From: a virus | IMG/VR virus record: IMGVR_UViG_3300035698_003004 | Coordinates: 1-23,072 of that record | Direction: 5' to 3' (one strand) | DNA length: 23,072 nt | Part shown: one piece after another, positions 2,608-20,257 of the stretch | Numbering within the stretch: position 1 is the stretch's first letter | Layout of the letters: the number at the start of each line of letters is the position of its first letter | Position numbers and translations under genes: made by a program | Notes under the pieces: generated by a model | Databases searched by the model: none | What the model saw: the letters and a program-made list of their open reading frames with translations, nothing else | Told to the model about the DNA's origin: nothing

Positions 2608-4395
2608 ATGAAAACTGAAATATCAAAACTTAAAGATTGGCACTCAGAACTTAAAACAAAGTCTGACGAGAATCAAAGTCTATGGGATGATATAGCGTCA
2701 GTTGTTGGAATAACCGTCAATCCTCGCAATAAAGGTACTAAGAACTATGGTAAAGAAGGCGATAGGGTAGATAGTCAGGTAGATGATCCTACTGCTGCGT
2801 TAAGTGTCAATCAGGCAGGAGATTATCTTATAGGCATACTATGGGGTACAGGTAACGATATATTACAGCTAGAGCCTACGGATGAAGTATTGCAACTTGC
2901 AGAAGAGGCAACAGTTGCACCTTTTTATCAGTATGTAAGCAAGACTTTATTAGACCAGATGAATCATGCAGAAGCAGGATTTAGTACAAACTTAAAACCT
3001 TATGCTTACGATCAGGTATCATTCGGGACCTCCGGAATGGGTGCATATCAAAATGAAGATTATACTAAAGAGGGAAATGCTATTGTATATAGAAGTTATG
3101 GAGTAGATAATATAGATATAGATGAAGGAAAGAATGGTTTAATTAATGTAGTTTTTGTAACTTATCAATGGCGAGTTAATAGGGTAGTGTCTGAATTTTG
3201 TTACAGAAATGGGATGTTTGATGAAAAAAAGTTTACAGAATTACCTAAAAAGATACAAGACAGCTATAAAAACAAGAAAATAAACGAAGAATATACAATA
3301 ATACAGGCTATTTTCCCCAGAGAGGACTATGATCCTAAGTTACAGGGGAAAAAGGGAACAAGATTTAAGGGTGTTTGGTATATTGAAGAGGAGAAAGCCG
3401 AAGCATTGCTTGAAGAAGATTATAAAACTATACCTATTGCAGTAGCCAGAGCTATTAAAATAAGAGGGCAAGTGTGGGGTAGAAGTAGTGGAACATTGCT
3501 AATATCGACTATAAAGTGTGTCAATTACATAGTAAAAAAAACTATAAAGATACTTGAAAAGATGGAAGATCCTTCACTTGGAGTGTGGAATAACGGTATA
3601 TTCGGGGATTCAGTTGTAGATTCATCAGCCGGAGGGCTAGTTGTATTTAACGAAGGTGTATGCGGAGGCGGAGGCAAGAATCCAGTATTTCCATTACATG
3701 AGGTGGGAGATCCAACAGGAATAATCCAGTATTTAGTACCATATCTTAATGAAAAGATAACAACAGGGTTCAAGGTTGATTTATTATTGGACTTCAATTC
3801 AGCTAAAGATATGACAGCAACAGAGAGCTTGCAAAGATATGTAATAAGAGGTAAAAGTTTAGCTAGTTTGACACAACAACAGAAAATTGAAATGTTAGAG
3901 CCTATTACTCACAGGTCAGTATCATTATGCGATAGTGTTGGACTTATGGGAGTTGATCCTACAATAGATGATAGTGTAAACAATAGACTAAAGAAGCTTA
4001 ACAGGGGCGATATGCTTATACCTGATGCAGTATTAGAGTTAAAGAAACAGGGTAAGCGGTGGTATAAGATAAGATTTAAGAATGAACTGGATAAGCTAAG
4101 CCATACACAGGCAGTTGAGAATATAATACAGGTAATTAATGTAATAACTGCAATGGCTTCTTTATATCCTATAATAGTAGAAGCAATAAACTGGTATAGT
4201 CTTGTAAGTGATTTAAACAAACATTTAGGATTGAGTTATATAATCGGAGAAAAAGCGTTTAAAGCTATTGTTGTGGCTGATGCTCAGGCTAAATCACAGG
4301 CAATGGAAGCTCAAGTTGGTAAGGATATGTCACAGGCGGGAAAGAATACAGTTGAAATGCAACAGATAGCAGGAGGCGGTAAAAATGGAGAATAA
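2608..4395 (+). CDS. head-tail connector (portal) protein, T7 gp8-like
   Basis: This 595-residue protein is the dodecameric ring at the capsid vertex that nucleates head assembly, binds the terminase and joins the tail. The N-terminal region L-K-D-W-H-S-E-L-K followed by W-D-D-I-A and V-N-P, and the downstream G-D-Y-L-I-G-I-L-W-G, match the podovirus head-to-tail connecting protein family (Head-tail_con). The size fits. A central glycine-rich segment (G-V-C-G-G-G-G-K, near residue 350) and the T-A-T-E-S-L-Q-R-Y motif near 400 are also family-like. An in-frame ATG at 2569 would overlap the small gene and has its GAGG touching the start codon; ATG 2608, one base after the previous stop and preceded by GGGA, is the better start. 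The end overlaps the next gene by 11 bases. Confidence 0.88.
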   Translation: MKTEISKLKDWHSELKTKSDENQSLWDDIASVVGITVNPRNKGTKNYGKEGDRVDSQVDDPTAALSVNQAGDYLIGILWGTGNDILQLEPTDEVLQLAEEATVAPFYQYVSKTLLDQMNHAEAGFSTNLKPYAYDQVSFGTSGMGAYQNEDYTKEGNAIVYRSYGVDNIDIDEGKNGLINVVFVTYQWRVNRVVSEFCYRNGMFDEKKFTELPKKIQDSYKNKKINEEYTIIQAIFPREDYDPKLQGKKGTRFKGVWYIEEEKAEALLEEDYKTIPIAVARAIKIRGQVWGRSSGTLLISTIKCVNYIVKKTIKILEKMEDPSLGVWNNGIFGDSVVDSSAGGLVVFNEGVCGGGGKNPVFPLHEVGDPTGIIQYLVPYLNEKITTGFKVDLLLDFNSAKDMTATESLQRYVIRGKSLASLTQQQKIEMLEPITHRSVSLCDSVGLMGVDPTIDDSVNNRLKKLNRGDMLIPDAVLELKKQGKRWYKIRFKNELDKLSHTQAVENIIQVINVITAMASLYPIIVEAINWYSLVSDLNKHLGLSYIIGEKAFKAIVVADAQAKSQAMEAQVGKDMSQAGKNTVEMQQIAGGGKNGE

Positions 4396-4702
4396 GATTG
4401 ATATGTCGGTAGTAGATGGATTGTTGAAACAAGAAAAGGCAAAAGTGGAGAAACAGAAACAATTTGAAGAAGAAATGCAAAGCTTAAAGGCAGATGCTAA
4501 TATATGCTTTGGGTCAACATCAGGTAAGCGAATAGCTAAATCTATGATGAAAGTATCAGGGATATACAATATCAATAAGAATGTAACTGATCCGGTATTG
4601 ATGGGAGAGCATAGGGGAATGGCTAAGATGTATTTAGTATTTATAAAGGGTATGTGTTCACAAGACTTAATATCCGATATAGAAACAAACAGGGAAGGAT
4701 AA
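4385..4702 (+). CDS. Bbp19-like phage protein
   Basis: This 105-residue protein has a charged, lysine and glutamate-rich N-terminal helix (residues 15-35), then F-G-S-T-S-G-K-R-I-A-K-S-M-M and a second block G-E-H-R-G-M-A-K-M-Y-L. These two blocks resemble the Bbp19 family, named after a Bordetella phage BPP-1 protein, where a 'vF.t.dGkrvL..L' block is followed by 'f.eGkR.v...I'. Members sit beside the portal and capsid genes of podoviruses; their role is unknown. It starts within the last codons of the connector (A-T-G at 4385, ribosome site AGGAGGC about five bases before) and ends one base before the scaffold gene, so expression is coupled to both. Confidence 0.65.
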   Translation: MENKIDMSVVDGLLKQEKAKVEKQKQFEEEMQSLKADANICFGSTSGKRIAKSMMKVSGIYNINKNVTDPVLMGEHRGMAKMYLVFIKGMCSQDLISDIETNREG

Positions 4703-4703
4703 G

Positions 4704-5510
4704 ATGAATATAGAAGATGCAGGTGTAGAACCAATAGTTCCAGTTGAAGATGTTACGATAGACACAGGCGGTGTAGATACTCCTGAAGTTATCGAGGATG
4801 GAGCATATCAAGTTCCGGAGGGTTACAGGGATAGATCATGGGCGAAAGATATAAAGAGCGAGGAAGATGTATATAAGCAGTTAGATGGTACTCAAGAGTT
4901 AATAGGTAAAAAGAGTTTACCACCTAAGTTTGATGAAATGACGGAACAGCAAATATCAGAGTATTACACAGCATCAAGACCAGAGAAGGCAGAGGATTAT
5001 GTAATGCCAGAAAGCTTTTCAAGTGTTGAGAAGGATTATTTTGCTAAAGCCTTCCATGAGGAGGGTCTAAGTGCATACAGGGGTCAAAAGTTAGCTGAAC
5101 GATATGAGGCTATGAATACAGAGATTAAAGAAAAGACCTATGGAGAAAAGGGATGGAAAGATATATTAAAGAGGTCTTTTGGGGATGATTTTGAATCTAA
5201 GGGTGGAGAACTAACAGGATTTATGAAGATGAACGCAACAGAATCAGACCAGAAGTTCATTGACGCAGCACCGAATGAGGTAATGGGTGCTTTTTATAGG
5301 ATTCTTGACAATATAAAGCAAGCTTATGGGGTTAAAGAATCAGGTACAGGAGGGAAACATCCGGCAGGAGTAACAGGATTACAGGATAAAGGTGCAATGC
5401 AGTCAGATTTAAGAAATCAGATAATCGGATTAAGTAAAAGACCACATTCATCAGAGGAAAAACAAGTATTGATAGACAAGTTAAATGCTACATACAAAAG
5501 TAGAGGATAA
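4704..5510 (+). CDS. scaffolding (capsid assembly) protein
   Basis: This 268-residue acidic protein is probably the internal scaffold that shapes the procapsid and is removed before packaging. Evidence: placement between connector and capsid genes, an acidic low-complexity N-terminus (residues 1-35), and the blocks V-P-E-G-Y-R-D-R-S-W-A-K and R-P-E-K-A-E-D-Y. These are characteristic of podovirus scaffold proteins, which usually carry 'ipeky.dk.w.k.....e.l...y' and 'GrPe.peeY'. The C-terminal 60 residues include R-N-Q-I-I-G-L-S and a basic end (K-L-N-A-T-Y-K-S-R-G), matching the usual coat-binding helical tail. It starts one base after the previous stop with AGGGAAGGA upstream. Confidence 0.78.
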   Translation: MNIEDAGVEPIVPVEDVTIDTGGVDTPEVIEDGAYQVPEGYRDRSWAKDIKSEEDVYKQLDGTQELIGKKSLPPKFDEMTEQQISEYYTASRPEKAEDYVMPESFSSVEKDYFAKAFHEEGLSAYRGQKLAERYEAMNTEIKEKTYGEKGWKDILKRSFGDDFESKGGELTGFMKMNATESDQKFIDAAPNEVMGAFYRILDNIKQAYGVKESGTGGKHPAGVTGLQDKGAMQSDLRNQIIGLSKRPHSSEEKQVLIDKLNATYKSRG

Positions 5511-5517
5511 TATTAAT

Positions 5518-5802
5518 ATGGAAACTACAAGATATTTAGCTCCGATAGGGGATTATATACTAGTAAAGTATATAAAAGCAGATGTAACACCATCAGGGAT
5601 TATTATTCCAGACGCAGTAGATGAAATTGGAAAAGGGTTTAAGGTGCTATGTAAGGGCGAAGATGTAAACGACATAATCAAAGTGGGGGAGTTTATATTG
5701 TTTGTCGTGAAAGAAGCAATATCAGTAAATATTGAGCATACAGAAAAAGATACTTTTCTAATTAAGGAAAAGTTTGTTATAGGCATATTAAAAGACAAAT
5801 AG
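5518..5802 (+). CDS. GroES-like co-chaperonin (Cpn10 family)
   Basis: This 94-residue protein has the full GroES layout. P-I-G-D-Y-I-L-V-K at residues 9-17 corresponds to the 'PLGDRVLVK' signature. A mobile-loop segment, D-V-T-P-S-G-I-I-I-P, spans 22-31, with I-I-I in the place of the GroEL-binding hydrophobic tripeptide. V-G-E-F-I-L-F at 56-62 matches 'vGd.VlF', and the C-terminal F-V-I-G-I-L closes the barrel. Bacterial GroES has about 95-97 residues. The roof loop between V43 and K55 looks short, as in T4 gp31, which also replaces GroES for capsid folding. It lies between scaffold and capsid genes, so the likely client is the capsid protein (inference). ATG 5518 with AGAGGA ten bases upstream is preferred to the in-frame ATG 5485, which lies inside the scaffold gene. 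Confidence 0.85.
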   Translation: METTRYLAPIGDYILVKYIKADVTPSGIIIPDAVDEIGKGFKVLCKGEDVNDIIKVGEFILFVVKEAISVNIEHTEKDTFLIKEKFVIGILKDK

Positions 5803-5817
5803 GAGGATAAAATTAAA

Positions 5818-6459
5818 ATGGTAGAAAAGAATACAGAAACTATGAAAATGATGAAAATGACAGTATCGGGAAGTTTTAAGACAAGTCCGGGAACGGATAA
5901 AGACAGATGCAACTTTGCTGATCTAAAGGGTTTAGTTGAGTTTGCTGATTATGAATATTATTACCAGATAGCCGAAAGAATGTTGCCTATATGGTTAGCT
6001 AAGTCTACAACATACAAGAGAAAAAACTTTGAAGGTCGCATAAAGATATATGTTGATGATGTCGTGGAGTGTGAAGGTACTCCTGAATGTCTGCATAAAG
6101 ATATAAAGGAAATGACCTGGGAAGAACTAATGAGTTTAGCTTGTTACGCTAAGATTAGGGAAATACCATTATACAAGCGAGGAGATTTAAGGAAGGCTCA
6201 AGAGAAAGCATATTTGCTATATGAGGAAAAAGTAAATGGCAAAACTATCATCAGGACAAAGAAAGACTTAAACAAGTTAGTAAAGAAGGCAGAAAGAAAA
6301 TTAGAGATAAACGGAGAGATGGTTGAGGGTGGAAAAATAAGTCAATCACAGCTAGAGGAAGCATTGAAGCCTTGCATAAACACTATGCAGGATGCCGTAA
6401 ATCCGTTAAATAGTTACAACTTTGCAAAATTGCCAAGTCTATTTATAGACGGTAAATAA
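5818..6459 (+). CDS. hypothetical protein upstream of the capsid gene
   Basis: I do not recognise this 213-residue protein. It begins with a methionine-rich stretch (M-K-M-M-K-M-T at 9-15), has a helical region with Y-E-Y-Y-Y-Q-I-A-E-R near 46-55, and a block M-T-W-E-E-L-M-S-L-A followed by I-P-L-Y-K-R-G-D-L-R-K-A. That block looks like a short helix-loop-helix of the SAP/Rho-N type, which can bind nucleic acid or act as a peptide dock. The last third is charged and probably helical. AGGAGGA (5802-5808) lies nine bases before the ATG. Its place between co-chaperonin and capsid suggests a role in head assembly or DNA packaging, but that is context only. Confidence 0.7.
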   Translation: MVEKNTETMKMMKMTVSGSFKTSPGTDKDRCNFADLKGLVEFADYEYYYQIAERMLPIWLAKSTTYKRKNFEGRIKIYVDDVVECEGTPECLHKDIKEMTWEELMSLACYAKIREIPLYKRGDLRKAQEKAYLLYEEKVNGKTIIRTKKDLNKLVKKAERKLEINGEMVEGGKISQSQLEEALKPCINTMQDAVNPLNSYNFAKLPSLFIDGK

Positions 6460-6463
6460 TAAG

Positions 6464-6556
6464 TAGTATTGCTGGGGGAGCTACACTTTTTTAAAAGTAT
6501 AGTCCTAGTGGAAAATGTAAGGAATCCGGGAAACGGGTAGTTCCGCTAGTGTTATT
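6464..6556 (+). ncRNA. candidate structured leader RNA before the major capsid gene
   Basis: The 120 bases between 6460 and 6579 hold no gene and fold by eye into a three-way junction. Hairpin 1 pairs 6477-6479, 6481-6483 and 6485-6489 with 6503-6505, 6500-6502 and 6494-6498. Hairpin 2 pairs GGAA (6521-6524) with TTCC (6541-6544) and CCG (6526-6528) with CGG (6534-6536) around a GGAAA loop. A closing helix pairs 6465-6475 with 6546-6556, using several G-U pairs and one mismatch. It could be a cis-regulatory leader, a processing site or an attenuator. It fits no class I recognise. The fold is a hand prediction. Confidence 0.45.
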
Positions 6557-6565
6557 TTAACTTTT

Positions 6566-6572
6566 AAGGAGG
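6566..6572 (+). promoter_or_regulatory. full-consensus ribosome binding site of the capsid gene
   Basis: AAGGAGG lies seven bases before ATG 6580, among the strongest such sites in the window, as expected for the most abundant virion protein. It follows directly after the foldable leader. Confidence 0.85.
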
Positions 6573-6579
6573 TGTTACA

Positions 6580-7503
6580 ATGAAAATGATTAGTCCAAGC
6601 TTGGATCAGGGTGCATTGCAGTCTTTCAAAGACAGCTTTTACCACATGGCTCAGCAAACTCAATCTTTGGTCGGCAGCTCAAGTGCTGTAACTTTTTTAC
6701 CATCAAAGGGTAAAACTCAGAATCTTGCTAGAATAGGCAAGGTTGAACTAACAGAGGTGTCAACCCGTAATCCGAATAAGCAGTACGGAGATTACAACTT
6801 AGATAATCGTCAGCTAACAAAAAGACGTTTTACTAAGACTATCCAGATAGATAAATTGTATGACATCAATGAGCTTATTGCTGATCCTACAAGCGATATA
6901 CTTACGCAGTTACTTTCAGCTAAGGAAAGAGTAATTGATAAGGTATTGTTACAGTCTGCTTCTGGTGCTGTACTTACAGGTGCTCCGGATAGTGCTCCAA
7001 CTTCAACAAGTGCTTCTGATGATGGAGTTATAACAATTACTGCAACAGGTGGTGTTGATTATGATGATATTACAGACATCACACAGAACTATATCAACAA
7101 TGAAATCAAGATGGAAGAATTTAGAGGATCTTTAATCTGCTTAACAGGTAAAGAGAACTCTGATCTTATGTCAATCTCGCAGTTTATAAACAATGATTAT
7201 ATAACTGCTAAGCCTGTTGATGAAAGTGTTATGACTAAAATGGGTGTTTACAAAACTGTTTTCTTCGCTGGTTCAGTAAGTGGTGGAATAACAGTAACTA
7301 ATCCTATACTTGCAGAAGGTACAACTTACAGGACTTGTGTAGTGCTTGCACCTAAGTCTTTGGCTGTATCAATGGAAATAGGGGATGTTTGTGTAGAGAA
7401 GTCAAATAACAAAGTAAACTCTATGGATATAACTGTTGATTTTTGGATCAACTCAATGAGAACTCAGGGCGAATTAGTCCAGTTACTCACAACAACAATA
7501 TAA
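6580..7503 (+). CDS. major capsid protein
   Basis: This 307-residue protein forms the icosahedral shell. It fits a group of podovirus-type HK97-fold capsid proteins that lack a long cleaved N-terminal scaffold. The diagnostic region is R-R-F-T-K-T-I-Q-I-D-K-L-Y-D followed by I-A-D-P-T-S-D-I-L at about residues 85-110, then A-K-E-R-V-I-D-K-V-L-L-Q-S-A-S-G, which is the long spine helix with 'D..ii.A..G.a..G'. The C-terminal part has S-M-D-I-T-V-D-F-W-I-N-S-M-R-T-Q-G, the usual 'w..Ga.r......v..I' ending. It is preceded by scaffold and co-chaperonin, and by a structured leader with a strong ribosome site. Expression should be high. Confidence 0.88.
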   Translation: MKMISPSLDQGALQSFKDSFYHMAQQTQSLVGSSSAVTFLPSKGKTQNLARIGKVELTEVSTRNPNKQYGDYNLDNRQLTKRRFTKTIQIDKLYDINELIADPTSDILTQLLSAKERVIDKVLLQSASGAVLTGAPDSAPTSTSASDDGVITITATGGVDYDDITDITQNYINNEIKMEEFRGSLICLTGKENSDLMSISQFINNDYITAKPVDESVMTKMGVYKTVFFAGSVSGGITVTNPILAEGTTYRTCVVLAPKSLAVSMEIGDVCVEKSNNKVNSMDITVDFWINSMRTQGELVQLLTTTI

Positions 7504-7518
7504 AGGCGGTGTTTCAAA

Positions 7519-8022
7519 ATGGCTAGCAGAACAACAGTTGGTTATACCAACAAACCTAAAGCTACCCTTTATAATCAGGGTAGTAAGATACAGACAGTAC
7601 AGGCAGAAGTCGCTGTTTTATCAACATGGAATGATGCAGATACAGTAATACTTGCTCGTAATCTTCCCTTAGCATCAAGGATAGTAAGTATCATCATGAG
7701 AACAGCAGGTTCTATCACAGCAGCTACGGATTATGATATAGGTATTTATAAGGCAGGGGATTCTGATGGAGATGCAATAGGCGATGTTATTGATGCCGAC
7801 ATCTTAGCAGATGGTATTGATTTTGATGCTGGTGTTGCATTAGGTGTAGATATACTTGGTACTAACCTCACATTTGTTAAGTCTAAAACACTTGGCGATT
7901 TGTTAGGTTATGACGAAGGCGAAGCACCTGTTGGAGGAGTTCATATTGTAATGACTTTGAACACAGCCGGAACAGCATCAGCAGATCTTGATATGGAAAT
8001 TAAAATTGATATGGCTGGATAA
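7519..8022 (+). CDS. probable head decoration or minor structural protein
   Basis: This 167-residue protein follows the capsid gene after 15 bases. It is rich in A, D, G, I and T and has an even beta-strand pattern. Its N-terminus carries N-K-P-K-A-T-L-Y-N-Q-G, its middle L-P-L-A-S-R-I-V-S-I-I-M-R-T-A-G, and its end an alternating strand (D-L-D-M-E-I-K-I-D). This composition is usual for decoration or head-fibre proteins encoded directly after podovirus capsid genes. No enzymatic motif is visible. AAAGGCGG precedes the ATG by several bases. The call is from position and composition; a tail or neck protein cannot be excluded. Confidence 0.6.
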   Translation: MASRTTVGYTNKPKATLYNQGSKIQTVQAEVAVLSTWNDADTVILARNLPLASRIVSIIMRTAGSITAATDYDIGIYKAGDSDGDAIGDVIDADILADGIDFDAGVALGVDILGTNLTFVKSKTLGDLLGYDEGEAPVGGVHIVMTLNTAGTASADLDMEIKIDMAG

Positions 8023-8082: not shown

Positions 8083-8685
8083 ATGAAAATAAGATATTTA
8101 TTAGTGTTAGTTCTTTTGGTTGGCTGTTTTGGTCTTTTAGCTCATGCTGATGATCTTGACTTTGCACAACTAGGACTACACGAATTAGCAACATCAACAG
8201 AGGCAGAAAGTGGAGATTTGTTATTGATATATGACGCATCTTCTAAGCGTGGAAAAACAATGGATGCTGCCAATCCGGTAGTTGCTGGAGATGTGACGTT
8301 TAGAGGTGATTTGCTTGCAAATGGTAGAAAAGGTGGAGCAAGTACAGTATCATCTTCTTCCACTGCATTAGCTCCGGCATCATTGCCATATACAGTAGTA
8401 AGAAAATGTATAGGTGGAGCAGGTGGACTTGATGAAACTGATGGAGGTACTAGGTTACAGAACGGAACAGCCGGACAAGTGTTAGTATTAGTAGCTATAA
8501 CCGTAGAAGGTTCAGGAACATGGATAGTAACTCCAGACCTATCATTAACTTTCAATACGTTAACTTTTGATGCAGTAGGCGAAATGACAACATTATTATA
8601 TATAGATGATGTAGTAGGTTGGATAGTAATGGCTAGTGAAGGAACAACAGTAGATCCAATAGTTACAGCATTTGAACTTGACTAA
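8083..8685 (+). CDS. secreted or lipoprotein-like virion-module protein
   Basis: This 200-residue protein starts with a clear export signal: K2 and R4, a hydrophobic run L6-V13, then two alternative cleavage signals. One is L-V-G-C at 12-15, a lipoprotein box. The other is A-H-A before D23, a signal peptidase I site. The mature part begins L-G-L-H-E-L-A-T-S-T and L-L-L-I-Y-D-A-S-S, a pattern I associate with phage fibre and decoration proteins. Its C-terminal 100 residues (T-A-G-Q-V-L-V-L then G-T-W-I-V-T-P-D) look like a beta-rich virion surface domain. A signal peptide on such a protein is unusual. AAGGAG is six bases before the ATG. It may be a head fibre that reuses an exported scaffold, or a surface protein displayed on the infected cell. 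Confidence 0.6.
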   Translation: MKIRYLLVLVLLVGCFGLLAHADDLDFAQLGLHELATSTEAESGDLLLIYDASSKRGKTMDAANPVVAGDVTFRGDLLANGRKGGASTVSSSSTALAPASLPYTVVRKCIGGAGGLDETDGGTRLQNGTAGQVLVLVAITVEGSGTWIVTPDLSLTFNTLTFDAVGEMTTLLYIDDVVGWIVMASEGTTVDPIVTAFELD

Positions 8686-8695
8686 TAAGGATAAA

Positions 8696-9823
8696 ATGTC
8701 TATCAAAAAAGTAATATCATATATAATTGGTTTGTTGGTGGGGTTGCTTGCAGTAGCTCCGCCAATAGGCTATAAAATACCCGTTATAATTAATAGTTAT
8801 AGCTGGCTATATATGTTTACTGTATCAGCATTATTGGGAGTATATTTAATATTTACTAAAATACCTACAACAATGAAAGTCTTGTCTATATATTTGTTAG
8901 TTGGTTGTTTTATAAGTCAAGCTCCCTATGTATCATTCAATGCTTATATTTTATGTGTAGGTGCTATGTATTGCTTTCTATGGGTACAAAGAAATGATTT
9001 CACTCCCATAATAGACATGGTATGTGCTGCGTTCTTCGTTCAAGTTATATTTACAACATTGCAGTTATTCGGTATGGATAAGCTATTGAACTTCGACAAG
9101 ACTACGCCTGTATTTGTAGGCACAATATTACAGTATATGAGGTTTTCATCTTTACTGGCAATAATGACACCTATATTAGTATTGAAAAATAAGAAGTTTA
9201 TATTTTTGATTATGGTACTTGCAGTATTATCTCAATCCTTATCTTTTGCATTATCTGTAATCTTAGGCATAACTGCATATTTCCTATGTAAGCATAGGCG
9301 ATATATTAAAGTTACTCTTATAAGTAGTGTAGTGGCTATGGGTGCTTATTGTATATGGGATAGGGTATCTATATCAGTAGCCATAACTTGTGGCAGGGTG
9401 TCAGTATGGGCTGATATTATAAGGACTATTTGTTATGATACGCTAAACTGTAAAGTGCCTATAAAATATTATATATCATCTTGTAGCATAGATTGGAAAG
9501 CTATTATATTTGGTAGAGGATTAGATACATTCTTACCATTATTTCCAATATTTAAACATGATCTTAACCCATTTCCTCAGGCTCATAACTGCTGGTTGCA
9601 ATTATGGTTTGAGATTGGATTGATTGGATTAAGTATATTAAGCGTGTATTATGTTAAGCTATTGATAAGATTGAAAAAAAATCCAATATTGGTAGGTGGG
9701 TTAATTTGCATGGGCGTAAATATGTTCTTTGCATTTCCTACTAGAATGACACAAACTATGCTAATGATAGTTGTATTCCTAGCCTATTGTGAACGGAAAG
9801 CAAGGCAATATGAAGCTATATAA
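8696..9823 (+). CDS. O-antigen polymerase/ligase-like membrane protein (Wzy_C type)
   Basis: This 375-residue protein is polytopic, with about ten hydrophobic segments spread through its length. It has the signature of the Wzy/WaaL family, which polymerises or ligates lipid-linked polysaccharide on the periplasmic side. The family pattern is G-R-V-S-V-W at 233-238, F-G-R-G-L-D-T-F from 272, then A-H-N-C-W-L-Q at 296-302 with F-E-I-G-L-I-G-L right after, where 'HN..l....e.G..Gl' is the hallmark. The length is near the lower normal limit. An in-frame ATG at 8672 lies inside the previous gene without a ribosome site; ATG 8696 has AAGGA just upstream. No separate promoter was found, so it would be made with the late genes. 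The last 14 bases overlap the next gene. The substrate is unknown. Confidence 0.75.
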   Translation: MSIKKVISYIIGLLVGLLAVAPPIGYKIPVIINSYSWLYMFTVSALLGVYLIFTKIPTTMKVLSIYLLVGCFISQAPYVSFNAYILCVGAMYCFLWVQRNDFTPIIDMVCAAFFVQVIFTTLQLFGMDKLLNFDKTTPVFVGTILQYMRFSSLLAIMTPILVLKNKKFIFLIMVLAVLSQSLSFALSVILGITAYFLCKHRRYIKVTLISSVVAMGAYCIWDRVSISVAITCGRVSVWADIIRTICYDTLNCKVPIKYYISSCSIDWKAIIFGRGLDTFLPLFPIFKHDLNPFPQAHNCWLQLWFEIGLIGLSILSVYYVKLLIRLKKNPILVGGLICMGVNMFFAFPTRMTQTMLMIVVFLAYCERKARQYEAI

Positions 9824-10663: not shown

Positions 10664-12702
10664 TGCAGAAAATCATATCATTATATAGTAACTTATCAAG
10701 AGGCGAAACAGACCATGATTTAATGGGCAGGGTAGACTTGCCTATATATAAGAATGGTTCTGAAAGATTCCGTAACTTTTGGAGCGATTTCAAAGGCAAT
10801 GCTTTATTTAGACCGGGATTTGAAAAGATGGTAGAGTTCGAAGATTGTAACATGGTTGAGTTTAAATTCACACAAAAACAAAGCTATAAGGCTTTATTTT
10901 ATAAAGAAAAGATTAAGTTCCTTAGTTATGATGTAGCTGGAAACTATGGATTCGTTCAATCTGGGGGTGCTGATTTAGAGGTTGCAAGTCCTTATAGTCT
11001 AGCAGAAGCTAAAGAAATACAGTTTACACAGAACGCAGATGTTATGTATGTAGTTCATAATCAACATGAACCTAGAAAACTAACTAGATTAAGTGCGAGT
11101 AGTTTTACATTTAGTACATTTGTAAGAACTGCTGATCCATTTGATGATCCTAACGCTGCTGGAACAACAGGTTATCCGGCTTGTGTTATATTTTTTCAGG
11201 GTAGATTGTATTATGCAGCACCAACATTAAAGGGAACTTCCTTATATGGTTCTATGGCTTCTGATTATGATAATTTAACTCCGGGTAATGCAGATAGTGA
11301 CGGATTAGAAATATCTATTGCAACTATATCCGAAAGCATAACATGGCTAAAAGATGGACAGAAAAGTCTATTATGTGGGAATCCAGATGGAATAGTAACA
11401 ATAAACGGAGGTAGTCCAACAGATCCTATAACTCCGAGTACAATAACAGCCAATATATCATATACAGATGGAAGCGATTCAAGTATTCCTATACATAAAG
11501 ACGGATTACTATTTTATATTAAGCATGATAAAAGGAATGTTAAGTATTTCCAATATGATTTGCTTACAGAAACATTTGATTCTCAAGATGCTAATGGTGT
11601 TAATTATGATGTAACTTCTGGGGGTATTAGTAATCTGTATCATATTAAAAACAAGAATGATTTAATCTTCATGATGTCAGATGATGGGGATTTTTTAAGT
11701 TTAAACTTTAATCAGAAAGAAAGCATAGCTGGATGGCATAGGCATAATACGCAGGGTAAAATAAAAGATTTATGTAAGATGTACGATCAAGATGGAAACC
11801 ATAATCTATTTGCATTAGTAGAGCGAACTAACGGGTTTTATATAGAAAAACTAAGCAATATAATAGAATTTCCTTTATTTGAGGACTATTTTACAGGCGA
11901 AAGTAACAAAAAAGCAGATAAAGAGGCATATAACAGGGTAATAGCTGAGAAGCTAAAAGAATGTAGATATTTAGATTCTTATGTTGTATGGAATGATTTA
12001 AGAACAGATCAAATTACTTATGATGCTACATTAGGAACTATCGTAACAACTACCGGGACTTTTCTTTCAGGGGATGTAGGCAAGAATATAGTATATAAAA
12101 CAAGCACAGGTTATGAATATGGCTACTTTAAGATAACAGAGTATGTATCTGTTACCGAAGTTAAAGTAACCGCATTAAGCGATATAACAGATATTGTATA
12201 TAGTAGCTGGTACTTAACAAATGATAGTATCGGGGGAATAGACCATTTGAAAAATCAGACAGTTGGAATAGTGGCAGATGGTGGATATTTAGGAGATTTT
12301 GTTGTTGACGAAGATGGAAATATAGAGTTAGGAATACAAGTAACAAATGCAGTAATAGGGTATAGATATAACGGAATAATACAAAGTTATCCTATTGGGA
12401 TGTTGATACAGCTTATAAACACTCAGCTATTACCTAAAAGTATAGTAAGAGCATATATGAGGTTCATACATTCAGCTGGTGGAGAGTTTGGCACAACTCC
12501 GTATAACATGGTAGCTATTCAGAAATATGACACGACAGGGGCAATATACGATTTACCACCATTACCTATGGATGGAACATATCAGATAACATATCCAGAT
12601 GATAGCTTGCTAGACAAGAAATACATAATCAAACAGACTAAACCATTACCTTTAAATATCGTATCAACTTCATTAGATGTGAAATATGGGGATAGGACAT
12701 GA
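10663..12702 (+). CDS. tail tubular protein B (T7 gp12-like nozzle)
   Basis: This 679-residue protein forms the hexameric tail nozzle through which DNA leaves. The N-terminus N-L-S-R-G-E-T-D-H-D-L-M-G-R-V-D-L-P-I-Y followed by G-S-E-R-F-R-N and G-N-A-L-F-R-P-G-F-E matches the diagnostic 'N.s.Ge.s..l.gR.D...Y..g...~~~N......G...rRPG' of this family. The rest is beta-rich, as expected for its propeller and platform domains, including repeated aromatic strands such as G-Y-E-Y-G-Y-F-K-I-T near 485-495. Its ATG uses the final A of the preceding stop codon. It ends with the ATGA overlap to the acetyltransferase-like gene. The tail fibre at 20273 should bind near the junction with the gp11-like ring. 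Confidence 0.86.
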   Translation: MQKIISLYSNLSRGETDHDLMGRVDLPIYKNGSERFRNFWSDFKGNALFRPGFEKMVEFEDCNMVEFKFTQKQSYKALFYKEKIKFLSYDVAGNYGFVQSGGADLEVASPYSLAEAKEIQFTQNADVMYVVHNQHEPRKLTRLSASSFTFSTFVRTADPFDDPNAAGTTGYPACVIFFQGRLYYAAPTLKGTSLYGSMASDYDNLTPGNADSDGLEISIATISESITWLKDGQKSLLCGNPDGIVTINGGSPTDPITPSTITANISYTDGSDSSIPIHKDGLLFYIKHDKRNVKYFQYDLLTETFDSQDANGVNYDVTSGGISNLYHIKNKNDLIFMMSDDGDFLSLNFNQKESIAGWHRHNTQGKIKDLCKMYDQDGNHNLFALVERTNGFYIEKLSNIIEFPLFEDYFTGESNKKADKEAYNRVIAEKLKECRYLDSYVVWNDLRTDQITYDATLGTIVTTTGTFLSGDVGKNIVYKTSTGYEYGYFKITEYVSVTEVKVTALSDITDIVYSSWYLTNDSIGGIDHLKNQTVGIVADGGYLGDFVVDEDGNIELGIQVTNAVIGYRYNGIIQSYPIGMLIQLINTQLLPKSIVRAYMRFIHSAGGEFGTTPYNMVAIQKYDTTGAIYDLPPLPMDGTYQITYPDDSLLDKKYIIKQTKPLPLNIVSTSLDVKYGDRT

Positions 12703-13109
12703 TAAGAGATTACATAAAAGGCGATTTAGAACGCATTAAGGAAAATAAACATTCTCGTATGGAGATTAAAAGCGATAAGTTTATTAAAGACTTTGAACAG
12801 AGAGAGAATTACACACTATATCGGGATGATGAAATAATGATGATATTCTCTTATAAGCAGTATGCGCCAAAAAGATATACTGTATACATGGTATTGTCTA
12901 AGTATTTTGATTTAGTTGATTTGAGAGAAGCTAAGAAGTTATGGGATAAAGGTGTCAGCATATTAGAGCCTATCAGAATAGAAACAATAAGCGAGGATGA
13001 CGAACAGAATAACAAGTTTCATAGATTTATAGGGTTTGAAAAAGAAGGTACTAAAAGAAATTATTTAGATGGTAAAGATTATATAGTCTGGGGGATTTTA
13101 TGGGTATAG
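12699..13109 (+). CDS. GNAT acetyltransferase-like phage protein
   Basis: This 136-residue protein has the outline of the GNAT fold. The C-terminal part F-H-R-F-I-G-F-E-K-E-G-T-K-R-N-Y at about 107-122 corresponds to the 'a...y...GF...g..r' motif of the last helix and strand. The two strands T-L-Y-R-D-D-E-I-M-M-I-F and Y-T-V-Y-M-V-L-S match the central sheet. Similar proteins are found beside the gp12-like gene in podoviruses, often called internal or acetyltransferase-like proteins, and may be catalytically weak. The acetyl-CoA loop (Q/R-x-x-G-x-G/A) is not obvious, so catalysis is doubtful. It overlaps both neighbours: four bases on the left and ten on the right. Confidence 0.6.
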   Translation: MIRDYIKGDLERIKENKHSRMEIKSDKFIKDFEQRENYTLYRDDEIMMIFSYKQYAPKRYTVYMVLSKYFDLVDLREAKKLWDKGVSILEPIRIETISEDDEQNNKFHRFIGFEKEGTKRNYLDGKDYIVWGILWV

Positions 13110-13612
13110 CATCAATAGTTTTGATGGTAGTAGCGGCAGCAGTAGCAGCTGGAAGTGCTTATTATGCAGGAGTTGAATCAAAAAAGAGTTCTAAGAAAAA
13201 AGCTGCTATGCTTGAATCTGATAAAAAGATGCGTCAGAAGGAAAGAGCCTTAAAGACAAGAAGATTAGCTTCCGGACAGAAAGCATCATTTTTAGCTAGT
13301 GGAATATCTTTAACAGGAGAAGGTACAGCAGCAACAATGCTTGATGAAACTTTCACATTTGGTAAAGAGGAAATTGAGAATATAGGCGAAAAGTATAGTA
13401 AACAACAAGAGGCTGTACTTGCTAAAGGTAGAAAAGATTATAATTTAGGATTGTTAAGTGTGATTACAGGAGTGTCTATGGCTGCTGGTCAAGCTGCTGG
13501 TAAAGTTTCTGAATTGAAAGCTCCAGAGAATAAATTAGATCCTTCTGAAACAAGAAAGCCGGGTTCAGGTGGTGTAAAGACAGGAACATCTAGTCCGGGC
13601 GGATTAAAATAA
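13100..13612 (+). CDS. internal virion (ejection) protein, T7 gp14-like
   Basis: This 170-residue protein starts with a hydrophobic, alanine-rich segment (residues 3-22), which looks like a membrane helix, then a basic, lysine-rich region (K-K-S-S-K-K-K-A-A). The central block K-T-R-R-L-A-S-G-Q-K-A-S-F-L-A-S-G-I-S-L-T-G-E-G is diagnostic: gp14 and P22 gp7-like proteins carry '.r..asg..rv..a.aGv.l.gs' there. The C-terminus is glycine and proline-rich and probably disordered. Such proteins sit inside the capsid and are ejected to form the outer-membrane part of the DNA channel. A tail-assembly role is less likely. Confidence 0.75.
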   Translation: MGIASIVLMVVAAAVAAGSAYYAGVESKKSSKKKAAMLESDKKMRQKERALKTRRLASGQKASFLASGISLTGEGTAATMLDETFTFGKEEIENIGEKYSKQQEAVLAKGRKDYNLGLLSVITGVSMAAGQAAGKVSELKAPENKLDPSETRKPGSGGVKTGTSSPGGLK

Positions 13613-13624: not shown

Positions 13625-15094
13625 ATGAAAAGACAACAAGCACAAAAAAGGTTATTAGATACAGCAGTTAAACCAGTTGATAATGCTGAATTATATAAAG
13701 CTATTGGTAGTGCCGCGTCTAAAGTTGGCATGACAATGTCTGATGTTGCTATGAGATACCAAGACAAGCAAGACGAAGCTACAATGATGGAATCTGCGAG
13801 TAATGCCAACATACAGATGATGGAAACAACGCAAGCATGGAGGGTTGAGAACGAATCAGACCCAAGCAATCCGAAAGCATTAAGTGAATTAGATAAATCA
13901 TATAGGGATATATATGGACAATATTCTGATAAAGTTAGTTTATCAGGTAAAGGCAAATGGTCGCAGACAAGTAACGCAATGGTTAATGATGCTAAAGAGA
14001 AGAACACAGTATGGGGAATAAAACAGGGAATAATAAATGCTGAAACAAACATCAACAACTCCATAGAAAACAATCTTGAAATGGGTAAAGTTATGGGAAT
14101 GAGTGGGGATGTAAACGAAGCTATGAAGATATATGGAACTTCAAGGGTAGCACTTAAATCTTTTTCAGAGGGTATTTTTAGTACACAGAAAATGGATGAG
14201 ATACTAAAAGATTATGAAAGTGATTATATGGAAGCCTTTGTTAGTGGTATGCTTGAGAATGACCCTGAGGGAGCTTTAGACTTGCTGAAAGACGAACGAG
14301 TGTTAATGTCTTTAGATAGTAAGGATAGAGAAGAAACCTTAACAGCTCTTGCAGATAAAAGAACTCTTGAGATAGACCATCAAACTAATTTAGATACTAT
14401 AACAAGCGAGAATGAAACAACATCTTTCTTAGCAAGTGATGAAGTATCTCTATCTGAAAAGTATGTTTCAATAGCTACAAATGAAAATATTAGTCCTGAA
14501 TATAAAAAATTAGCAACTACATATTTAAAAAGTAAAGCAGCAGTAAAACCTAAATCAGGAACACCAGAAGAAACAGAATTGATTAGACTTTCAGGTTCAT
14601 TAAAGAATATGTTAGGTAAAGATCCTAATTATGGTTCTAGTAAAGAGTTTTTAAAAGCATACAGGGATTTAAACAACTTAGCTATGAAGTATTTAGGTCG
14701 GGGTACAGTAACTACAAACGCTGTTAATTCAGTACAGAAGGGTTTAAATTCTAAAATAGCAGATGCTTCAAGAGGTTTAACTGCTAATCATAAATGGGGA
14801 TATGATGAAAAAGATGCAGACAAGTATTTCAAAGAAAATCTAGGCAGTAATCTATATAGGGATGAAGCTTTAAGGGAATTTTTCTATCAATCAGATGGTC
14901 AGAAGTTATCCAGAGAAGAATCTGAGCAGTTGGCTTTTGATATAAAGAATAATATAAACAACAGAATATTAGGCATCAAGCCTGTGAAGAATAAACCTAA
15001 ACCTAAAGTTACATTAAAAGTAGGAACAGTACAACAGGGTTATAAGTTTAAGGGTGGGGATAGATATGATAAGACAAACTGGGAGAAAATATAA
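13625..15094 (+). CDS. internal virion protein, T7 gp15-like
   Basis: This 489-residue protein is largely helical and lacks signal peptide or membrane segments. Order and size match gp15-type core proteins, which follow a gp14-like protein and precede the largest core protein. Its C-terminus is the strongest signature: G-T-V-Q-Q-G-Y-K-F-K-G-G-D-R-Y-D at about 468-483, then N-W-E-K-I; this 'G.v..Gy.f.GGDP.....W' ending recurs in podovirus internal proteins. Acidic helices around D-D-P-E-G-A-L-D-L-L-K-D-E (near 215-230) resemble helical repeats. It would be ejected into the periplasm as part of the translocation channel. AAGGA lies six bases before the ATG. The stop abuts the next start at 15095. 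Confidence 0.72.
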   Translation: MKRQQAQKRLLDTAVKPVDNAELYKAIGSAASKVGMTMSDVAMRYQDKQDEATMMESASNANIQMMETTQAWRVENESDPSNPKALSELDKSYRDIYGQYSDKVSLSGKGKWSQTSNAMVNDAKEKNTVWGIKQGIINAETNINNSIENNLEMGKVMGMSGDVNEAMKIYGTSRVALKSFSEGIFSTQKMDEILKDYESDYMEAFVSGMLENDPEGALDLLKDERVLMSLDSKDREETLTALADKRTLEIDHQTNLDTITSENETTSFLASDEVSLSEKYVSIATNENISPEYKKLATTYLKSKAAVKPKSGTPEETELIRLSGSLKNMLGKDPNYGSSKEFLKAYRDLNNLAMKYLGRGTVTTNAVNSVQKGLNSKIADASRGLTANHKWGYDEKDADKYFKENLGSNLYRDEALREFFYQSDGQKLSREESEQLAFDIKNNINNRILGIKPVKNKPKPKVTLKVGTVQQGYKFKGGDRYDKTNWEKI

Positions 15095-18000
15095 ATGGCT
15101 AATCCGTGGGATAAACCAAATGAATCAATAGCTTCTCAGGACAATGTTAAATCTAATCCGTGGGATAAGCCAAACGAAGAAACATCAAAGTTTAAGCCTA
15201 ATAACTATATGCCTAGCAATGTTGGCGATAATATAGACACTCCTAGTCGTATAAAGAACATGGTAGATATGCTAGGGGCAACATTAGACCCTACTGGTGG
15301 ATTTTTAGGTAAGAGTGTCAAGGGCTTGGTTGATGAATCCATGAAAGCTCCTAAGAACTTAATGGAGATACCTAAAGCAGTAGCAAGATCAACTGAACAG
15401 TTTGCCGGAGGAGTGTTAGGATTGACAAGTGTAGTCGGTTCAGTAGTTCAGATGAATGATAAATATATTGATATGATAAAGAAAACAGGATTAGTAAGTG
15501 GTGCAGCTGTTAGCAATATGCAAAACCTATCTTCTATTATGGAAACATGGGGTAAAAAAGGTAAAGATTTCTTAATTCGTGAATCAATGGAAGGCTGGGA
15601 AGCTCCGGACCCTGAAATATTCAAAGGTTCATTTATGGAGAATCCAAGTTTTACCAGAGGATTTGCAGTAGCTTCTGGTGCTGTTCCTTCTCTTGCCGGA
15701 TCATTACTTGTAAGTGCTGCAACTGGAAATCCTTTAATGGGTGCTTTAGTGTTGGGTGGAGTTGAAAGCGAAAGTATATTTTTCGCTAAAAAAGATAAGG
15801 GGGGTTCTGAACTTGATGCACTTGCATTATTTACAGTTGCAACTATTGGAACTACATGGCTTGAATATTTAGGCATTAAATCTATTCAGGTAGCTGGGGG
15901 TAAAGCAATATCTAAAGTACCTAAAAACGCAATTATCAAAAAAGCCGTTGATCGTATAGGCAAGAACTCAAGACGAGTTATGAAAAAGTATTTAACAAAT
16001 AGAGTAACTAAAAGCCCCTTAGTAAATCGTATATCTGGAATAGTTAAAGCAGGGTTTGGAGAAGGTAGCACAGAAGGACTACAAGAGATATGGGGTAATG
16101 CAGTAACTAAGATGGGTGTAGATAATTCACAGGAACTACTTACGGGAGTAGTAGAAGCCTTTATAGGAGGTTTCGGAGGTGGTGGCATAGCTACAATAGG
16201 ATATAGTTATGCAGGTAGTGTAATGGAAAAGAGAAGGCTTAAAAAGAAGATAAAGGAATTTGAGAAAGTCTTAAAGGTAGCTAAAGAACAGGGTATAGAT
16301 ATAGACCAGTTTAATCTAGCAGTTGAAAAGAGTATGGGAAGCAAACATAAAGATATTGATACGGAAATAGATAACGAGGTCAATGATAACTTAGACTACT
16401 TAAATGATATGAAGGAAGCAGAAACACAAGACATAGGAGAGCAGGCACAGGAAGCTCAAGACCAAAGAATCACAGAAGATGCTTTTAAATATGAAACTAA
16501 AGAAGAATTTATTAATAACATTTATAATAAAGATGGTATGCGACCTGTATTTGTAGAAGAAATATTACCAGCAGGATATAACATTAAAATGAATATGCAG
16601 ACAGGCGAACAAACAACAGATGCACCTTTAAGTACAGAAAGTAAAGCTAAGTTATCAGATACATACGACATAGCACAGAAAGTAAAAGATATTGAAACTA
16701 AGGTAAAGGGAGCAGAGGTAAAATCTGTAAGGGATGAAGTAGCCAAGACACCAGAGCAGAGCCTAGAGGCAGAGGCGAGGAAGTATGGGAGTGTTGAGGA
16801 GTTTTTAAAGAGTAAAGGCACACCATTGTATAGGGGTGGTAAGGGTTTTGGAGTAGGGTCTTTTTCTACCTTCAAGTCTATTGCAGATAGTTTTGCGACT
16901 AACAGGGGTGGTACTACAACTGAGTATATGCTAGATTCAAAAGCAAAGATTGCCGATTATCTAGATTTTCCAGATGCGAAATATTTAAGTACAGATAACT
17001 CTACTCTTGATTTAATGGGAGATGATAAGCTACTTAAATTTATGGAGGGAGAACTTGAGATAGATTATTCTAAGGCTACAAAATGGGCGAAAGAAAACGG
17101 ATATGACGCAATAAAGTTTCCAGTAGAAGGAGAGATTAGAGTAATAAATAAAAGTGCTGTAAAAACCAAAGAACAACTAACCGAAATATACAACAAATCA
17201 AAGCAACCGACAACAAAAGCAGACACATCATTTAATTTCGGGGCAAACATAGAAGAAGTAGGCAAGCCTGAAACACTCACAACAGCGAGAAAAAGACTTG
17301 ATAAGATACTTGATGTTAAACTTAAAATGCAGACAGCTATGGATATGCGCGAACAAGCAAGAGTTATGCTAGATGAATTTAAGGGCAGAATAAAGACAGT
17401 CAAAGTAGATGATGTAAAGATACCACAGTATTTCCGGACTGCTAATAAGAATGGTATATCAATAGATGAGGCAACAGACGAATATAACAGAAATACAGGT
17501 AGTAATTTATCTGATAGTGAATTTACAAGTTCTTTAGTAAGTGGATATGAAAACATTCAACAACTTAATGCAGATATAAAAGCATTAAGACCAATATTAC
17601 AGAGAAAAGTTAGCGAACAGGTTGCACTTACAAGACTTGTTGCTCAGGAAGAAAAAACTATATTAGCCAAGCTAAAGGGCGAAACACTATTAAGGGTGGA
17701 AAAGGTCAAGAGTGGTATTAAAGTTGGCCAGGCGAAAGTTAAGGGCGAAATTAAGGGCAAGAAGGAAGGTATCAGGGAACAGAAAAAGACAGCTAAGGCA
17801 TTACAGGAAGAAGTTATTAAGATGCTTGAAGATGCTAAGCATTTAAATAGTAAAGATGTAAAAGCTTATGTCAGGGCAATTAAAAATATACCGACATTAT
17901 CAGATGCTAAACTTAAAACAACAATGAAAGATATTGCTACTCGCATTGAAAACAAATCACATCAAAGACAAAAGGCAAGACTTGCTAAGAAAATAAAGAG

Positions 18001-20257
18001 ATTAGCTAAAGTTGATGTTGACCAAGATTATAGAGATCAGATAGATGCTTTACTAGAAGGTAATGAGTTAAAGACTAGATCCGAAAAGATTAAGAAGAGG
18101 CGAGAATCAAGAGCTGATTTTATTGCAAAGCAACAGGCAGATGGAGAATTAACTTTATTTCCTAGAGGTTTCTTTGAGAATTTACCAAAAAAGACTTTAG
18201 ATGAAATGACAGTTGATGAATTACAGGAGATACATGACACTATTGCAGTATTGGCTAAGACAGGCAAACTTAAAAACAAGATGTTATCTTTAAAGAAAGA
18301 TAAAGAAGTAGCTGATTTTGTTAATGATTTAGTTACAAAGGGATATAAAAAGGTTGGTAGAAAAGAAGGTGTTATTACAGAAGAAACACTTAAAGCAACT
18401 CCGAGAAAAAACAACTGGCAGAGATCAAAAGAGATATTAGATGGGTTCTTTGCAGCACATAGAAAAGTTGATTTTGTAATGAAATTTCTTGATGGGTTAG
18501 AACTAACTCAGATTATACATGATGGTCGTATAAAAGAAATGAAGTTAAAAGAAAAAGTATATCCTATGCTGGATAAAGCTATTAAATCATTGGGAGATAT
18601 TGGCAAGGTAATGACAACTAAAGGGTTGTATGGTATTACTAGGGAGCAGATGGTAGGCATAGCCCTAAACGCAGGAAATCAAGGTAATTTAGAGCGAGTA
18701 ATAAAGGGGAACAAGCTAACAATAGAACAAGTCAGAAACATTATAAATGATTTAAGTCCTCAAGAAAGTAAGTTTGTAGCTGATGTATTTAAGATAGTAG
18801 ATAGTCTTTTTCCGGTAATGAGTGAAACAACTAGAAAAATGACAGGATTAGACGCTCACAAAGTAGATGGGCAATATTTCCCAATAGTTGCAGATTATGA
18901 ACTAAGTAAACAGGCAGCACTACAAGAAGCCCAGAGAGATTTGTTTCAAGATGTATTTGCTCAAACATATATAGCTCATTCGTTTAATAAGTTAAGACGA
19001 GGAGGCAATGCACCAGTAAACTTAAATATATTTGATGTGATTACTAGGCATATAGATGATGTAATACATTACACCTCCTTTGCAGAAGGTGTTCGGGATG
19101 TTCAGAAGGTTATTAACCATCCAAGATTTCAAGCAATGGTAACAGATATATATGACGATAAGGTATATGACCAGTTTCCTTTATGGTTGAAAAGCATAGC
19201 TAATCCTAAATCATTAAAAGTGAAAGGTGCTTTGCAATGGTTAGAGAAACCAGCACAGTATTTAAGAAGTAGTGCTACAACTGCTATGTTAGGATTAAGA
19301 TTAACAGTATCAGCAGTACAGGCAGGTTCATATACTCAGACGATTAAAGAGATAGGACTAAAAGCAGCCTTAAATGCAATAGGCGAGTTTTCTCAAGACA
19401 AGAAAGGTACAACTGAATTTGTATTTGAAAATTCAATTCTTATGAGGAATAGACAGCAGACTTTTGATAGAGATATAAAAGATAATATAAATTCTGGTAA
19501 GCTTAGTGAATTAACTAAAAATAGACCTTTGAATAAGGAAATGTTGTTTTATATGATCCAATCAGTTGATTTAGCAACAACAGTTCCTACATGGTTAGGG
19601 GCGTACAATAAAAGATATGCTGAAACAAACAACAAACAAGAATCTATAAACTATGCAGATCATGTAGTAAGGACAACACAGCCTACGGGGTTGCCTGAAA
19701 ACCTATCAGCAGTAATGAAGGGTTCTGAATTTCAAAAGATGTGGACGATGTTCATGTCGCATTTTTCAAATGTGCATAACCAATTAACATTATCTTTAGA
19801 TGAACTTAAAATGGGTACAGACGATCCATTACGCAAAATAGGAAGTTTAGCAAGAAATATGTTCCTGTTATGGCTATTACCGGCATTTGTAGCTGGATAT
19901 ATTAAGAATTTAGGCGATTTAGATAGAGCATTGAAAGATGTTGTAACATATCCTTTTGCTGGGTTGATGTTGTTTAGAGATTTGGCTAATTCAATAAAAG
20001 GATTTGATATGTCAGCACCTCCGGCATTGGGTGCATTTACAGAAGCAGGAAAGGCTATTAAAGCTAAGAAGTTTAAGACCAAACTAAAAGCAGGCATAAA
20101 GTCAGCCGGAATATTAACAGGACAAATACCAACACAAGTAGTAGATTCAGTTAGTGGAGCTTTTGATTTAATGACAGGAGATACAGATAATTGGATGAGA
20201 TTGTTCTTTTCTGAGTACGCATTAAAGAATTTTGGTAATAGCGGATCAAAGTATTAA
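15095..20257 (+). CDS. giant ejection protein, T7 gp16-like position, with ADP-ribosyltransferase-like domain
   Basis: This 1720-residue protein fills the position of the largest ejected core protein. Residues 3-28 hold two copies of N-P-W-D-K-P-N-E. Hydrophobic segments lie at about 189-215, 242-262 and 351-376 and may insert in the host membrane. A charged helical linker follows. Residues 575-700 look like an ADP-ribosyltransferase: L-Y-R-G-G with R580, S-F-S-T-F with S591/T592, then E678-G-E680 before I-R-V-I, the R-S-ExE layout. A long lysine-rich, coiled-coil-like stretch spans 730-1080. The C-terminal 300 residues (Y-A-D-H-V-V-R-T-T-Q-P-T-G, then F-M-S-H-F-S-N-V near 1560) resemble the large polyvalent protein-associated domain LPD38. 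No lysozyme or transglycosylase motif like that of T7 gp16 was seen. GGGAG is ten bases before the ATG. Confidence 0.75.
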   Translation: MANPWDKPNESIASQDNVKSNPWDKPNEETSKFKPNNYMPSNVGDNIDTPSRIKNMVDMLGATLDPTGGFLGKSVKGLVDESMKAPKNLMEIPKAVARSTEQFAGGVLGLTSVVGSVVQMNDKYIDMIKKTGLVSGAAVSNMQNLSSIMETWGKKGKDFLIRESMEGWEAPDPEIFKGSFMENPSFTRGFAVASGAVPSLAGSLLVSAATGNPLMGALVLGGVESESIFFAKKDKGGSELDALALFTVATIGTTWLEYLGIKSIQVAGGKAISKVPKNAIIKKAVDRIGKNSRRVMKKYLTNRVTKSPLVNRISGIVKAGFGEGSTEGLQEIWGNAVTKMGVDNSQELLTGVVEAFIGGFGGGGIATIGYSYAGSVMEKRRLKKKIKEFEKVLKVAKEQGIDIDQFNLAVEKSMGSKHKDIDTEIDNEVNDNLDYLNDMKEAETQDIGEQAQEAQDQRITEDAFKYETKEEFINNIYNKDGMRPVFVEEILPAGYNIKMNMQTGEQTTDAPLSTESKAKLSDTYDIAQKVKDIETKVKGAEVKSVRDEVAKTPEQSLEAEARKYGSVEEFLKSKGTPLYRGGKGFGVGSFSTFKSIADSFATNRGGTTTEYMLDSKAKIADYLDFPDAKYLSTDNSTLDLMGDDKLLKFMEGELEIDYSKATKWAKENGYDAIKFPVEGEIRVINKSAVKTKEQLTEIYNKSKQPTTKADTSFNFGANIEEVGKPETLTTARKRLDKILDVKLKMQTAMDMREQARVMLDEFKGRIKTVKVDDVKIPQYFRTANKNGISIDEATDEYNRNTGSNLSDSEFTSSLVSGYENIQQLNADIKALRPILQRKVSEQVALTRLVAQEEKTILAKLKGETLLRVEKVKSGIKVGQAKVKGEIKGKKEGIREQKKTAKALQEEVIKMLEDAKHLNSKDVKAYVRAIKNIPTLSDAKLKTTMKDIATRIENKSHQRQKARLAKKIKRLAKVDVDQDYRDQIDALLEGNELKTRSEKIKKRRESRADFIAKQQADGELTLFPRGFFENLPKKTLDEMTVDELQEIHDTIAVLAKTGKLKNKMLSLKKDKEVADFVNDLVTKGYKKVGRKEGVITEETLKATPRKNNWQRSKEILDGFFAAHRKVDFVMKFLDGLELTQIIHDGRIKEMKLKEKVYPMLDKAIKSLGDIGKVMTTKGLYGITREQMVGIALNAGNQGNLERVIKGNKLTIEQVRNIINDLSPQESKFVADVFKIVDSLFPVMSETTRKMTGLDAHKVDGQYFPIVADYELSKQAALQEAQRDLFQDVFAQTYIAHSFNKLRRGGNAPVNLNIFDVITRHIDDVIHYTSFAEGVRDVQKVINHPRFQAMVTDIYDDKVYDQFPLWLKSIANPKSLKVKGALQWLEKPAQYLRSSATTAMLGLRLTVSAVQAGSYTQTIKEIGLKAALNAIGEFSQDKKGTTEFVFENSILMRNRQQTFDRDIKDNINSGKLSELTKNRPLNKEMLFYMIQSVDLATTVPTWLGAYNKRYAETNNKQESINYADHVVRTTQPTGLPENLSAVMKGSEFQKMWTMFMSHFSNVHNQLTLSLDELKMGTDDPLRKIGSLARNMFLLWLLPAFVAGYIKNLGDLDRALKDVVTYPFAGLMLFRDLANSIKGFDMSAPPALGAFTEAGKAIKAKKFKTKLKAGIKSAGILTGQIPTQVVDSVSGAFDLMTGDTDNWMRLFFSEYALKNFGNSGSKY
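15101..15178 (+). repeat. direct repeat encoding NPWDKPNE twice
   Basis: Two 24-base copies at 15101-15124 and 15155-15178 differ at two wobble positions only (22 of 24 identical). Each encodes N-P-W-D-K-P-N-E at the N-terminus of the giant ejection protein. Similar D/N-P-W-D motifs occur at the start of podovirus internal proteins, where they may dock to another core protein. Confidence 0.75.

Follow-up and report, generated by a model that had tools for sequence, protein, structure and literature searches.

The stretch of DNA analysed here (the window, i.e., the 23,072 nucleotides of IMG/VR virus record IMGVR_UViG_3300035698_003004) is a podovirus structural cassette in which terminase, portal (phrog_332), capsid and tail tubular genes are accompanied by a phrog_418 internal virion protein, a 489-aa protein, a giant protein and a tail fibre (Table 1). 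The annotations of vir555 and of Bordetella phage BPP-1 show a matching gene order, and the cassette order parallels gp14-gp15-gp16-gp17 of T7. The giant ORF runs over 1720 residues with zero internal stop codons, and its C-terminal region (residues 956-1697) matches phrog_9880 with an E-value of 3.9e-97. A first-pass annotation of this DNA had described an ADP-ribosyltransferase (ART)-like domain inside a giant ejected protein; both the phrog_9880 family and the BPP-1-like gene order agree with this location and, judging from gene order and relatives, it is likely that the ART-like domain is carried by an ejected protein. The residues that had drawn attention, namely R580, S591-T592 and E678-G-E680 with the preceding G-Y-D-A-I, are all found in frame in the ORF translation (E678-G-E680-I-R-V-I-N at 17126-17149; codons of S589 and S591 at 16859 and 16865, respectively), and the two hydrophobic stretches detected by the hydropathy scan lie N-terminal to them.

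Some neighbouring ORFs are worthy of mention. A GroES-like co-chaperonin (Cpn10 E 1.9e-6; phrog_3188) is encoded at 5485-5802, just before the capsid gene, and a 383-aa ORF at 8672-9823 gives a sub-threshold match to Wzy_C (O-antigen ligase/polymerase, E 9.7e-5), an odd site for such a function between capsid and tail-tube genes. At 12699-13109, a weak match to GNAT acetyltransferases was obtained (E 0.0095); Vibrio phage 1.182.O has a gene annotated as acyltransferase at the equivalent place.

Table 1. Features of the ejection cassette and of the giant protein in the window, followed by the enzyme domains located in named relatives (residue numbers of the relative).
Feature	Position	Strand	Basis
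Internal virion protein	13100..13612	+	phrog_418, E 2.5e-5
489-aa protein, gp15 position of the ejection cassette	13625..15094	+	gene order only; no family match
Giant internal virion/ejection protein, 1720 aa	15095..20257	+	phrog_9880; BPP-1 Bbp10 family; T7 gp16 position
Hydrophobic N-terminal stretches, residues 189-225 and 348-371, possible membrane-inserting segments	15659..16207	+	hydropathy scan; role inferred from T7 gp16 (PMC8954989)
Putative ART-like domain, residues 553-702 (two leading helices, core, closing helix)	16751..17200	+	AlphaFold2 model, Foldseek, HMM
R580 in L578-Y-R580-G-G, putative first catalytic position (mostly H in ART-PolyVal)	16832..16834	+	model strand E31-38; H-column alignment
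S589-F-S591-T592 (within G588-S-F-S591-T592-F), putative second catalytic position	16859..16870	+	model strand E45-47; alignment
G669-Y-D-A-I, GYDG/GYDA motif of ART-PolyVal	17099..17113	+	sequence, alignment; hhalign E 1.1e-5 including the next motif
E678-G-E680, putative third catalytic position	17126..17134	+	E680 opens model strand E136-139; E/D/Q/N/other column alignment
Conserved C-terminal region of the ejection-protein family, residues 956-1697	17960..20185	+	phrog_9880 match, relatives
ART-PolyVal, Limnohabitans phage DC33	residues 664-792
ART-PolyVal, ctEw122	residues 629-758
ART-PolyVal, Caulobacter phage Jess A	residues 612-777
PBECR1, BPP-1	residues 643-729
PBECR5, Cobetia phage Carin1	residues 911-1052

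Homology and predicted fold of the mid-chain domain

Taken alone, the ART-like domain of the window matched no Pfam or NCBIfam model, including the R-S-E Pfam families, and a sequence search of the PDB returned RNA-binding proteins alone, all with E-values above 0.1. Its relationship was reached through its one close relative, on IMG/VR contig 3300029268_000065 (hereafter L001), whose protein is 56% identical across the domain, keeps R, S-F-S-T and E-G-E, and matches ART-PolyVal (PF18760) with an E-value of 0.002 (19.3 bits, below the gathering cut-off of 31.2). Unlike the window protein, the L001 protein possesses a second, H-type ART behind the R-type domain (PF18760, E 2.6e-6), so that both ARTs stand in tandem in one 1155-aa ORF (4291-7758 of the contig); the remainder of this protein has no PHROG match. 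PF18760 comprises the HYD2-type ARTs of polyvalent proteins, which are large injected phage proteins (Iyer et al. 2017, PMC5512222), and is described as an H-Y-D family.

The profile search that the first-pass annotation had proposed gave a positive answer: an HMM built from 10 H-type ARTs, with the window domain left out, picks up residues 585-703 with an E-value of 4.5e-5, relative to a small target set of 32 sequences in which the best reversed decoy scored 0.34. T4 Alt, ModA and ModB were not found by this profile in the same set. When the R-type pair (the window domain and that of L001) was aligned with the H-type profile by hhalign, an E-value of 1.1e-5 was obtained across the GYD and third-motif region. 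In addition, a clear PF18760 member (L002, E 3.6e-22) has in common with the window domain the preceding helix and the tail (KYGSVEEF... and ...KTKEQLTEIYN). The likeness to ART-PolyVal thus comprises lineage by profile, flanking helices, the GYD[AG] motif, the xE-h-x-V-h-[ND] strand and the setting in a large injected phage protein, whereas the window domain differs by R, S and ExE in place of H, Y and E/D, by first two sites that stand 13-19 residues closer together, and by a score under the Pfam cut-off. As regards membership of PF18760, homology to H-type members is detectable while the gathering cut-off is not reached and the H-Y-D residues are absent.

AlphaFold2 modelling of residues 545-715 from a 12-row alignment that includes H-type rows yielded a pLDDT of 83.7 and a pTM of 0.71. 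In this model, R580 lies on the first strand (E31-38), S589 and S591 lie on the second (E45-47) and E680 opens a late strand (E136-139), i.e., the three motifs are borne by core strands in the order that the ART superfamily fold requires. Foldseek comparison with viral models gave 11 matches with E-values of 1e-3 or less, several of them named ART-PolyVal. Against the PDB, most matches belong to the ART superfamily (PARP, tankyrase, cholix, KptA) with a scattered minority, each being individually weak (E 0.017 and up, low TM-scores). The top match is chain 9k3a_B of the cyanophage A4 pre-ejectosome, and a profile including the window domain aligns with residues 1421-1600 of this 1717-residue chain (E 4.8e-5); here an ART-like domain is carried by an ejection-complex protein of solved structure, but it is of the H type (LYHGT) and sits near the chain end. 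A control model computed from the R-type pair alone (two rows) was of low confidence (pLDDT 59.8); its order of elements was much alike and its top three matches were also present in the first Foldseek list. Model and structural matches therefore agree with the ART fold that had been suggested from the motifs, and it is very likely that residues ~553-702 adopt an ART-like fold.

R, S and ExE in the catalytic columns

Across the aligned family, most rows have H in the first catalytic column, while Y, F or W stands in the second and E, D, Q, N or another residue in the third. The window domain and L001 display R, S and E at these columns, with an extra E two positions before the third; S589 falls in the Y column and S591 in the next S/T column. 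It is worthy to note that residue choice in these columns varies widely between members, T being seen in the first, W or M in the second and a large assortment in the third, which suggests that some family members are probably inactive. Eight residues separate R580 from S589, whereas H-type relatives have about 21-27 between their H and Y, and the missing segment makes the activity of the window domain uncertain. The full R-S-ExE set was encountered in just two sequences, the window and L001, while the giant ORFs of L068, L072 and L089 have R at the first position and keep the remaining PolyVal pattern. In a tree of 33 ART domains, which holds no R-S-E outgroup, the R-type pair is supported (97) on a long branch and the rest is mostly unresolved; the tree shows neither which catalytic state came first nor how R arose at the first position.

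Wider searches were conducted with degenerate DNA patterns for GYDAIxFxxxxE. Across 84,980 genomes they returned 23 stretches, all in unrelated proteins or non-genes, and in IMG/VR they recovered the L001 contig alone; an over-specified pattern for the preamble gave zero matches. Profile A2 likewise found zero matches in 398 and 395 genomes of two phyla, a result that says little as it lacked a positive control. Salmonella phage SPFM10 gave a weak match by tblastn, discarded as chance, the aligned NYDAV stretch belonging to no ART. This residue set appears uncommon in this setting, the setting itself being known.

Candidate function and competing readings

Taken together, we consider it probable that residues ~553-702 form an ART of the ART-PolyVal lineage occupying a swappable effector position in a giant podovirus ejection protein, and delivered to act on the host. 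This reading combines computed elements (homology, predicted fold, gene context, residue differences) with inferred ones (ejection, cytoplasmic exposure, activity, target). The giant protein would be packed in the head core and would exit via the tail either ahead of the DNA or together with it; by comparison with T7 gp16, for which a model locates the central part in the cytoplasm of the host (PMC8954989), the hydrophobic N-terminal stretches of this ejection protein may insert and thereby place the middle of the chain in the host cytoplasm, where the ART domain would take host NAD+ and ADP-ribosylate a host macromolecule as infection starts. Given R, S and E (ExE) in the catalytic columns, the chemistry may resemble that of R-S-E mono-ARTs such as T4 Alt. 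T4 Alt, ModA and ModB carry the same R-S-ExE residues as the window domain, and Alt is packaged and injected; in contrast, they are stand-alone proteins that the H-type profile does not detect as homologues. In the T4 enzymes, E to A replacement of ModA E165 or Alt E577 abolished activity (PMC11404850). Catalytic activity of the window domain is about an even call, and arginine specificity is a guess drawn from ExE. It is tempting to go further and to propose that the whole catalytic set was exchanged within ART-PolyVal, from H-Y-D to R-S-ExE, the product being a mono-ART that is active, has a compact R-S loop and is delivered in the DNA-ejection machine; we regard this extension as less likely than not.

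The most serious competitor, in our opinion a rather doubtful one, is that of a degenerate and inactive ART fold which the core protein retains as a structural module, catalysis being precluded by its short R-S linker and changed residues. The absence of the H-to-Y segment of the relatives and the variability of the catalytic columns, with some members probably inactive, speak for it; R, S-F-S-T and E-x-E are nevertheless intact in both members of a pair that has diverged to 56% identity, and decay is not expected to produce a complete alternative catalytic set. The domain might otherwise be an NADase or an anti-defence ART, acting on nucleotides or nucleic acid or countering NAD+-dependent host immunity rather than modifying host proteins, which seems unlikely. 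ExE is classically tied to arginine transfer in R-S-E enzymes, and the window gives no pointer to a particular target, although the family is without known targets and several functions are on record among viral ARTs (PMC9503650).

That a true R-S-E clade member (Alt/ModA/VIP2 type) was inserted, its likeness to ART-PolyVal being superficial, appears quite improbable. The R, S-T and ExE residues are the R-S-E signature and, by eye, the spacing from S591 to helix Ala597 equals that from S98 to A104 in T4 ModA; yet the best family is PF18760 (via L001), the R-S-E Pfam families and the T4 enzymes remain unmatched, the flanks and GYD motif are common to H-type ART-PolyVal, and L068, L072 and L089 combine R at the first position with the PolyVal pattern elsewhere. 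The first-pass assignment to the arginine-specific ARTs survives as regards the motifs (R, S-[TSQ], E-x-E), while the membership of the R-S-E clade that it implied received no support from these comparisons. Finally, there might be no ART here, the motif having arisen by coincidence within a linker or a coiled region. A loose R..ST..ExE pattern arises in 14% of shuffled copies of the giant protein, hence the loose motif is no evidence, and the window domain matches no curated family. A tight pattern (hydrophobic-aromatic-R-G, x-S-T, E-x-E-h-x-h) occurs in 0.1% of shuffles, and in none of 20,000 once G-[YF]-D-[AG]-h is added before ExE. As these patterns were drawn up after the sequence was known, homology and fold weigh more than shuffle counts, which only show that the motif find is not trivially chance. 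Since profile, fold and relatives all point the other way, a chance motif is hardly credible.

A swappable enzyme position in the phrog_9880 proteins

The giant protein matches 41 phage records at 21-29% identity, and the named phrog_9880 relatives are BPP-1 Bbp10, Cobetia phage Carin1, Caulobacter phage Jess A, Limnohabitans phage DC33 and ctEw122. C-terminal region, gene order and a variable enzyme position are alike in these proteins and in that of the window: ART-PolyVal (clear in three of the named relatives), PBECR1 or PBECR5 occupies the corresponding part of the chain, whereas LPD22, found N-terminally in most of them, was not detected in the window protein. Large, multidomain, encoded in a virion morphogenesis cassette and bearing variable enzyme domains in its family, the giant protein fits the polyvalent/ejection class. 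Such enzyme domains at the corresponding position agree with the effector-like cargo put forward in the first-pass annotation, and a search for the same insertion in relatives was fruitful, the ART profile scoring in 23 of 80 IMG/VR relatives of the giant protein. By contrast, novelty of an ART within an ejected core protein is not supported: more than one quarter of the relatives examined have one, and ART cargo in such injected, multidomain "polyvalent" proteins has already been described (Iyer et al. 2017, PMC5512222), so that the interpretation is right in kind and not new. A later survey reported fusions of MuF head proteins with Alt/VIP2 and N4-ART domains (PMC9503650).

What the window adds to this known class of virion-delivered effectors is a rare active-site variant in which the three catalytic columns differ together. 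If active, it would provide a test of whether H-Y-D and R-S-E chemistries replace each other on one scaffold and, should the full exchange be true, the two great ART classes would be able to convert into each other within a single effector family. The swappable position of BPP-1-type ejection proteins (ART, PBECR1, PBECR5) may also be a convenient hunting ground for early-infection effectors. Two H-type ARTs in tandem were observed in the giant ORF of L118, an ejection-protein relative (residues 705-828 and 859-1062). Lastly, the relatives L050 (1346-9724, MW202640), L054 (BPP-1 bbp10) and L055 (Jess A) are annotated as 'crystallin beta/gamma motif-containing protein' or 'lysis protein', names that look misleading since the domains detected in them are ART-PolyVal, PBECR1 and LPD22.
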